From Flavobacteriaceae bacterium (GTDB lineage: Bacteria; Bacteroidota; Bacteroidia; Flavobacteriales; Flavobacteriaceae), in the NCBI GenBank assembly GCA_027081505.1, contig JALWKK010000048.1, positions 1 to 33,087 on the forward strand: a DNA stretch of 33,087 bases. The letters run 5' to 3'. Made by a program: the position numbers and the translations under genes. The notes beneath the pieces are model-generated. The model saw only the letters and a program-made list of their open reading frames with translations. It did not search any database and was not told where the DNA came from. Shown here piece after piece: positions 2,064 to 23,077 of the stretch; the first letter of the stretch is position 1, and each line of letters begins with the position of its first letter.

Positions 2064-2132
2064 TAATACCAAAAACATCTATTTTTTAATTCAATTTATT
2101 TCGGGCTATAAAATTACTCCTTTTGGTATAAG
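2064..2132. mobile_element. Short (internally deleted?) copy of a MITE-like palindromic element
   Basis: TAATACCAAAAACA...AATTTATTTCGGGCTATAAAATTACTCCTTTTGGTATAA matches both ends of the longer element at 22233-22399. Confidence 0.65.
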
Positions 2133-21096: not shown

Positions 21097-21132
21097 TGAA
21101 AATGTGAGACATTGTTTTACAAATTGAGAACT

Positions 21133-22140
21133 ATGAATGAATTAGTTGAAAATAAGGAATATAATGAGTTGATTGAAAATATCGATTCTGTTTATAACAA
21201 AGCGAAAAGCAAAATCATTTCTTCAATTAATGTAGAAATGCTTGATGCTTATTGGAAAATTGGTGAAGATATAGTTAAATTTGAACAAAAAGGGAAATTA
21301 AAAGCTGAATATGGAAAGAAATTGCTAATAAACCTATCCAAAGATTTGTCTATAAAATATGGTAAGGGATTTAGCCGTAGCAACTTACAATATATGCGAC
21401 TTTTTTACATACATTATCCAATTTAACAGACAGTGTCTTGCAAATTAAGTTGGTCTCATTACGTTGAGTTATTATCTATAAATGATGATTTGGAAAGAAA
21501 ATTTTATCAGAAACAAGCAGAAATTGAAAATTGGACGGTTAGAGAACTCAAAAGACAAAAGAAAACAGGACTTTTTCATAGAATAGCGTTGAGCAAAGAC
21601 AAAGAAAAAATTCTTGAAATTGCACAAAAAGGACAAATTATTCAATCTGAACAAGATTTGATTAAAAATCCTTATGTATTTGAATTTCTAGGATTTCCTG
21701 AAAATAAATTGTACAAAGAAAGCGATTTAGAAAATGCCATAATAACAAATCTACAACGGTTTTTATTAGAATTAGGTAAAGGTTTCGCTTTTTTCGGCAG
21801 ACAACAACGTATTACACTTAACAATAGACACTTTTATGTAGATTTAGTTTTCTACCACGCTAAATTGAAATGTTATGTTTTAATAGACCTCAAAATCGGA
21901 AAAGTTGAATACGAACATATAGGTCAAATGAAATTATATCTGGGTTATTATGAAAAAGAAATAAATGATGAAATGGATAACCAACCAATAGGAATAATAT
22001 TATCGGAACAGAAAGATGATATAATGGTTGAATATGCAATGCTTAACGACACATCTAAATTGCTTGTCTCAGAATATCAACTTTATTTACCGGACAGAGA
22101 AGAACTAAAAAGAAAAGTAAAAGAAATAATTGACGAATAA
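21133..22140 (+). pseudogene. DUF1016/YhcG-type PDDEXK nuclease family gene with in-frame TAA at 21424
   Basis: Two same-frame ORFs read through as ...GKGFSRSNLQYMRLFYIHYPI*QTVSCKLSWSHYVELLSINDDLERKFYQKQAEIENWTVRELKRQ...FYVDLVFYHAKLKCYVLIDLKIGK..., a canonical DUF1016 N-domain plus nuclease-domain layout. Confidence 0.88.
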
Positions 22141-22232: not shown

Positions 22233-22399
22233 TAATACCAAAAACAACTATATATTAGTCCAATAAATCGTTTCTTTTTACCTGTATCTTCGTTAAAAAT
22301 ACTCGTTATAGCTACGGCTATAACTGTGCTTTTCGCCTTGATACAGAAAAAAATATTCCAATTTATTTTGGACTAAAATACAATTCCTTTTGGTATAAA
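22233..22399. mobile_element. MITE-like nested palindromic element with terminal inverted repeats
   Basis: TAATACCAAAA / TTTTGGTATAA ends; sub-terminal TTAGTCCAATAAAT / ATTTATTTTGGACTAA; inner CTGTATC / GATACAG; central hairpin GTTATAGC-TACG-GCTATAAC at 22305-22324. Confidence 0.75.
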
Positions 22400-22594: not shown

Positions 22595-23077
22595 TTATTT
22601 TCTTTCATAGGTTAAGTAAGTAAAATCAAAATTATGTCTTTCATCTTTAGGATGGTATTTTTCGTTCACCAACTTCCATTTATTTAAATCAATTTCAGGA
22701 AAAAAAGTATCGGCTTCAAAAGTGGCATGAACACGGGTAAGCTCAATTTTATCGGAAATATCCATCGCTAATTTATATATTTCGCCTCCACCGATAATAA
22801 AGGGTTGTTCGTCATTTTTAGCAATTTCCAGAGCTTGTTGAAGTGTGTTTACTACAACAGCGCCTTCTTTTTTATATTTTTTGTTTCGTGTGATGACTAT
22901 GTGCGTACGGTTGGGAAGCGGTTTCGGGAAGGTTTCAAAGGTTTTTCGTCCCATAATAATGTGATGACCGGTAGTGAGTTTTTTAAATCGTTTAAAATCA
23001 TCGGGCAGGTGCCAAACCAAATCGTTGTCTTTACCCAGCTCGTTGTTTTTTCCTGCAGCAGCTATTATGGTAATCAT
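22595..23077 (-). CDS. folA: Dihydrofolate reductase
   Basis: IIAAAGKNNELGKDNDLVWHLPDDFKRFKKLTTGHHIIMGRKTFETFPKPLPNRTHIVITR, FIIGGGEIY. Confidence 0.96.
   Translation of the reverse strand: MITIIAAAGKNNELGKDNDLVWHLPDDFKRFKKLTTGHHIIMGRKTFETFPKPLPNRTHIVITRNKKYKKEGAVVVNTLQQALEIAKNDEQPFIIGGGEIYKLAMDISDKIELTRVHATFEADTFFPEIDLNKWKLVNEKYHPKDERHNFDFTYLTYERK

Follow-up and report, generated by a model that had tools for sequence, protein, structure and literature searches.

MITEs are usually seen as deletion remnants, in which the ends are kept for the transposase and the middle is free to decay. Both TNA (IS5 superfamily, IS1031-like) and TWA (eukaryotic PIF/Harbinger) are known 3-bp duplications or targets; IS630 targets TA, and RUP is an IS630-type TA element. 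A MITE of a Bacteroidota genome that has been described is MITECca01 of Cardinium, which is derived from IS982, is ~240 bp long and was found in one strain, where the parental IS982 is present (PMC9769881). The 160-bp element considered here is like MITECca01 in being short, without a transposase, bounded by terminal inverted repeats, located in a Bacteroidota genome and spread in trans, but MITECca01 has no reported phylum-wide core or interchangeable ends (PMC9769881). BrickBuilt and other MITEs of Porphyromonas gingivalis are also Bacteroidota MITEs; in the published description, on which the distinction is based, BrickBuilt contains a minisatellite, unlike the 160-bp element (PMC4596501).

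Further afield, Correia of Neisseria and QMITE1/2 of Coxiella are described as MITEs with transcripts that form, or are processed as, hairpins; these families are defined by their own ends, and the parts of the account that deal with them mention no core shared across unrelated ends (PMC10969869). QMITE1 is reported there to have derivatives down to 39 bp, a precedent for the 40-bp forms described below (PMC10969869). Likewise SPRITE, a terminator-like repeat of Streptococcus pneumoniae, and RUP and BOX of the same species, belong to a different phylum and are compared with the present element by description, as given in that account (PMC10969869). IS5-superfamily and PIF/Harbinger MITEs have the 3-bp TNA/TWA duplication in common with it. 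A search of the literature (subscription journals lay outside its coverage) gave no description of such a family. The MITE itself is a known kind of element; what is apparently undescribed is a superfamily that spans the phylum, conserves its core and has exchanged its ends. We consider it probable, at roughly 0.85, that the element is a MITE and that it belongs to a modular superfamily.

The element, its copies and its empty sites

The window, that is, the whole stretch of 33,087 nucleotides analysed, is contig C48 of the host genome G000 (a fragmented 2.12 Mb assembly, 78.8% complete), the relatives of which are Flavobacteriaceae. Its features are as follows.

2067–2128, plus strand: 62-bp derivative of this MITE family that lacks the core, with TAA at 2064–2066 and 2129–2131
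22233–22235, no strand: left copy (TAA) of the target-site duplication, identical on both sides in 12 of 12 clean copies and single in empty sites
22236–22395, plus strand: MITE of 160 bp, one long imperfect palindrome without an ORF (fold z = -8.85; genome copies; ends and duplication)
22236–22262, plus strand: left arm, a terminal inverted repeat of 27 nt (TACCAAAAACAACTATATATTAGTCCA), family-specific in sequence
22263–22368, plus strand: 106-bp core common to families with different ends (covariance model R1, 113.8 bits)
22305–22324, no strand: apex hairpin GTTATAGC-TACG-GCTATAAC, terminator-like on both strands (2 sites found, 0.2 expected; family-wide test below)
22369–22395, plus strand: right arm, a terminal inverted repeat of 27 nt (reverse complement TACCAAAAGGAATTGTATTTTAGTCCA)
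22396–22398, no strand: right copy (TAA) of the target-site duplication

The near-palindrome runs from TACCAAAA to TTTTGGTA (TACC...GGTA), with TAA on either side. The original prediction described a palindrome nested at four levels, and all four of its inverted repeats are found in the element. Its matched inverted ends also stand, except that the outer TAA, which it had included in them, is a direct target-site duplication lying outside the inverted repeat. The 29-nt ends are 83% complementary, with the tips paired at 11 of 14 positions. One strand of the element folds as a single hairpin, as had been claimed, at -44.6 kcal/mol, against a mean of -17.5 (sd 3.1) for 200 dinucleotide shuffles, none of which did as well; the element is also free of ORFs of at least 100 aa. 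It is thus below the 500 bp taken as the upper size of a MITE, carries no transposase gene, and has the terminal inverted repeats, target-site duplication and dispersed copies with conserved boundaries by which MITEs are recognised.

Blastn gives 33 matches in the host genome, some of which are one copy read on both strands; they amount to ~18 full or near-full copies at 74–100% identity, together with a tail of partial copies and fragments. Where the ends are clean, the same TWA stands on both sides (seven copies with TAA/TAA, five with TTA/TTA). Queries made of joined flanks identified five loci with empty sites in relatives: L002 (empty in G003 and G005), L003, L007 and L010 (each empty in G005) and L008 (empty in G005 and G012); the L003 site is filled in G003 also. 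At four of these loci, the empty site carries a single copy of the TWA that is duplicated in the filled one, which exceeds it in length by the element (~160 bp) and a further 3 bp. At the fifth, L008 on contig C22, both relatives (L154 and L155) have TTA and the filled copy has TAA/TAA, the result of either a substitution or an unusual target event. Comparison of filled with empty sites shows directly that the element inserts and duplicates a 3-bp TWA as it does so. Because of the matched TWA flanks and the empty sites, the element is identified as a MITE: the palindrome is a real mobile element of 160 bp in flavobacterial genomes. The MITE-like reading offered originally, with its expectation of dispersed copies with conserved ends, is therefore upheld by the copies, the matched duplications, the empty sites and the compensatory stem substitutions described below.

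Other repeats occur near some of the copies. A separate ~150-bp repeat (..GGATAAAGGGGGAAATCCGGGAAACCCCGACTTAG..) is found at L158 (G000:C59:12788-12940) and recurs more than ten times elsewhere in G000 and G005, at 88–97% identity; the MITE of L010 sits within one copy of this repeat, and the L158 copy is empty. Similar DNA flanks one side of the MITE copies L004, L005 and L015, which suggests insertion beside or into another repeat.

The element was originally placed at the breakpoint of a kinase gene. The adjoining gene encodes a DUF1016/YhcG PDDEXK nuclease, and the 'kinase gene' is therefore a misreading; the gene (21112–22140) consists of two ORFs in the same frame, divided by one in-frame stop at 21424–21426, ~800 bp away from the element, and is either a pseudogene or affected by a sequencing error. 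It ends 92 bp ahead of the element, the other flank of which is a convergent dihydrofolate reductase gene (22595–23077).

A conserved core with arms of unrelated classes

In more distant relatives, the matches are confined to the middle of the element. A pattern scan for the core motif across 84,980 prokaryote species returned 21 loci, all of them with titles naming Flavobacteriaceae, Flavobacteriales, Bacteroidales, Saprospiraceae or Bacteroidetes; in phages, plasmids and viral contigs no match to the motif or the element was obtained. With R1, a covariance model built on the 106-bp core, the core is found in nine of 396 genomes drawn from the whole phylum. Of 400 Flavobacteriaceae genomes sampled, 100 are positive, representing 79 of 237 genera, and a positive genome often has at least nine copies (nine candidates being scored per genome). 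In other genera the E values are of the order of 1e-11 to 1e-19, and the core is present in Saprospiraceae and Bacteroidales as well.

The original prediction had looked to compensatory substitutions in the stems, and these are present. In a structural alignment of 15 representatives, the window's own structure of 35 pairs is retained in 86.7% of cells, with double changes at 21 of the 35 pairs; the best slid control reaches 51.8%, and no shuffle attains the observed values. Conservation extends beyond pairing to the sequence motifs CGTTAAAAA, TAGCTAAGGCTAT and TTTTTTGCCTTGAT and to a non-paired stretch. Columns 54/87 and 41/110 of alignment A3 hold a conserved position that does not pair (31 of the 36 representatives lack a standard pair there) and a T-G pair that is nearly invariant, both of which resist homogenisation of the two arms of the palindrome.

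The terminal arms behave differently. Across 18 representatives they are 25–28 nt long, each pair is self-complementary, and the total length is 157–167 bp (in the few element calls that are shorter or longer, the ends are uncertain). By sequence, the arms belong to unrelated classes, namely TACC(A).., GGG.., GGAAC.., GAGTCTG.., GCACC.. and TACTCATTAC... The TACC.., GGG.., GAGTCTG.. and TACTC.. families nevertheless keep a length near 160 bp and a TWA duplication throughout, and TWA is identical on both sides in 32 of the 52 elements with proposed ends, G-type elements included. When TACC-type representatives are compared with G-type ones, identity is 64% in the cores (the mean for shuffles, taken over all pairs, being 52%) and 45–46% in the arms, which is chance level (shuffle 49%). 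In elements that bear the core, the middle is thus better conserved than the ends.

On a tree of 57 cores, which with 106 columns is coarse, the G-arm class needs five changes by parsimony and at least two if only well-supported (starred) branches are counted. The TACC-armed core of the window belongs to a starred group of ten together with G-armed cores from Saprospiraceae and 'Bacteroidetes bacterium'; other G-armed cores cluster with TACT-armed ones. Different arm classes also occur within one genome (L046 and L037 in G012; L098 and L092 in G159). From these sequence comparisons we infer that arms have been exchanged on a conserved core, at least twice. A related observation is that one 'Bacteroidetes bacterium' contig (L067:4708-5028) carries two core elements ~110 bp apart, with the G-type arms GCACCAA and GGGAGGAGG, respectively.

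The scheme that we favour would have a DDE transposase, supplied in trans, bind the arm tips and cut with a 3-nt stagger at TWA, in the manner of IS5-superfamily or PIF/Harbinger-like enzymes. The palindromic core of 106 bp would be a separate module with a fixed place in the ~160-bp element, and the arms would have been replaced at least twice, presumably as different transposases took control of the element. The core would most likely be conserved for what it does, once inserted, to the host's transcript or DNA; our preferred, if doubtful, candidate is a two-way terminator or RNA hairpin by virtue of which insertions at gene ends can be tolerated. We put forward, tentatively and at somewhat less than even odds, the idea of a phylum-wide mobile 'passenger core', a conserved, structured DNA or RNA module of ~106 bp that survives by taking on new terminal repeats again and again, with a change of transposase each time, and has a selected function of its own, for which termination, a small RNA or a protein-bound hairpin are candidates.

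Alternatively, the likeness of the cores might reflect older common ancestry within one MITE lineage, the ends having drifted with the transposase, with neither exchange nor function. Such a history would account for the clustering of arm classes on the core tree (for both TACC and G, none of 500 shuffles is as low) and for the constancy of arm length and total length. It is nevertheless unlikely: a functionless MITE mobilised in trans should retain its ends and lose its middle, and the opposite is seen; the starred branches cannot be reconciled with fewer than two changes of G-type arms; and single genomes (G012 and G159) hold different arm classes. Replaceable ends around a better conserved middle, as in the modular superfamily that we prefer, are the reverse of the usual picture of a MITE. 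If the core is under selection, roughly one in four of the Flavobacteriaceae genomes sampled would carry a domesticable functional RNA or DNA module or, alternatively, there would be evidence that MITEs can switch transposases.

Derivatives without the core also exist. In the complete genome G253 the arm-tip pattern occurs 103 times, against ten for a reversed control, and many of these sites are 40-bp elements in which the two arms meet directly, without a core, at a common internal junction (TACCAAATTAACAATACGACATTTCAAAATTAAATTGGTA and close variants). They are dispersed over different loci, most of them flanked by matched TWA duplications, and the simplest reading is a single deletion followed by transposition. 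Since these 40-bp forms have spread with TWA duplications of their own, the core is probably dispensable in cis for transposition. Core-less derivatives are found in the window's own genus too. Partial end matches in G000, G003 and G005, considered as possible IS ends, are instead short core-less derivatives or relics.

Terminator or structured RNA as a possible role for the core

At the apex of the window's element, each strand shows a hairpin with T runs after it, giving the two terminator-like sites listed above. Amongst the 57 cores, such sites are present on the plus strand in 25–34 and on both strands in 13–16, depending on the G+C threshold, the corresponding rates in shuffles being 2–11% for one strand and 0.2–1.4% for both. 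With signals on both strands in only 13–16 of 57 cores, termination cannot by itself explain why the core is conserved. The 52 elements that could be placed relative to genes, some of which come from the same or near-identical loci, include 23 between tandem, 12 between convergent and only two between divergent genes, and 13 that overlap an ORF call, often by ~20 bp at the ORF end. This placement agrees with insertion at gene ends and with a terminator-like role, but is no proof of selection for that role.

It could also be supposed that the element is primarily a structured non-coding or cis-regulatory RNA, repeated by chance; the original prediction had offered a structured RNA as an alternative to a mobile element. 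The strong fold (z = -8.85), the maintenance of the 35-pair structure with its 21 double-change pairs above all shuffles and slides, and the strand-specific conserved motifs and mismatches are in keeping with this. The strong fold of the original RNA reading is thus borne out; the reading gains no support from Rfam 15, in which no covariance model matches the core above its gathering score (Flavo-1 had been considered as an identity, and no Rfam family matched), or from wobble pairing, an RNA-specific excess of G-U over A-C having been found nowhere outside the conserved columns. Outside two or three columns, departures from Watson–Crick pairing are about equally G-U and A-C, as is expected for a DNA palindrome, which speaks against pairing in RNA as what mainly constrains the core. 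Covariation alone is not proof of RNA function, since hairpin-templated repair can also introduce compensatory changes into a palindrome. Added to this are the exact insertions with target duplications, which demonstrate mobility, and a gene context that varies, with none constant. A primarily RNA identity is accordingly judged improbable. For the core of the modular element, the lack of a general G-U excess and the possibility of hairpin-templated repair lead us to regard a terminator or insulator function as something that might apply but is rather unlikely, absence of any function as unlikely to a similar degree, and some other RNA or protein-binding role as plausible, although short of an even chance.

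Candidate transposases

The original prediction had envisaged a transposase with matching terminal inverted repeats, an expectation that was disappointed in the host and the relatives searched: no transposase with matching arms was found in G000 (itself fragmented and 78.8% complete), in nine further element-bearing genomes or in G600. An arm-pattern search of G600, in which the copies are nearly identical, gave no IS, the unpaired ends lying mostly at contig breaks. One G600 copy, L254 (G600:C51:23347-23682), is larger by ~170 bp of a different sequence (..AACCCGCTTTATG.AATAGAA..), part of which is also beside another copy, L260. In the complete genome G253, with ~100 arm-like sites against ~10 in the control, no transposase lies between matching arms; pairs of arms spaced by 1.3–3.3 kb were considered as a possible IS, and their ORFs, judged by eye, appear to be ordinary host genes, none of them transposase-like.

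An IS630 of the same genome has been considered as the parent, the element then being an ordinary internal-deletion derivative moved by the IS630 transposase. A fragment of a DDE_3 (IS630-type) transposase does adjoin the element's 46-bp left end on contig C65 (L021:1501-2068), and, apart from the host, G051 and G012 are the only ones of 59 genomes with relatives of that protein at E<1e-30; both bear elements with the same core. This parentage is very improbable, however, given that the element duplicates TWA rather than TA, that the other two relatives of the C65 transposase lack the arms, that G005, with 19 element matches, has no relative of it at E<1e-30, and that the sequence shared at the sole IS630 junction stops inside the core exactly at TA (..CTTTTTA/TTAACC as against ..CTTTTTA/CCTG), as expected if an IS630 had inserted into a MITE copy, which is the most likely reading.

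The 3-bp TWA duplication agrees with the TNA duplication of the IS5 superfamily. Among the DDE_Tnp_1 and DDE_Tnp_1_2 (IS5-type) loci returned from ten genomes, none bears the element's arms. In G012, which belongs to the window's genus, an IS with a DDE_Tnp_1 transposase is flanked by TTA on both sides (L176), which indicates that suitable enzymes exist nearby.
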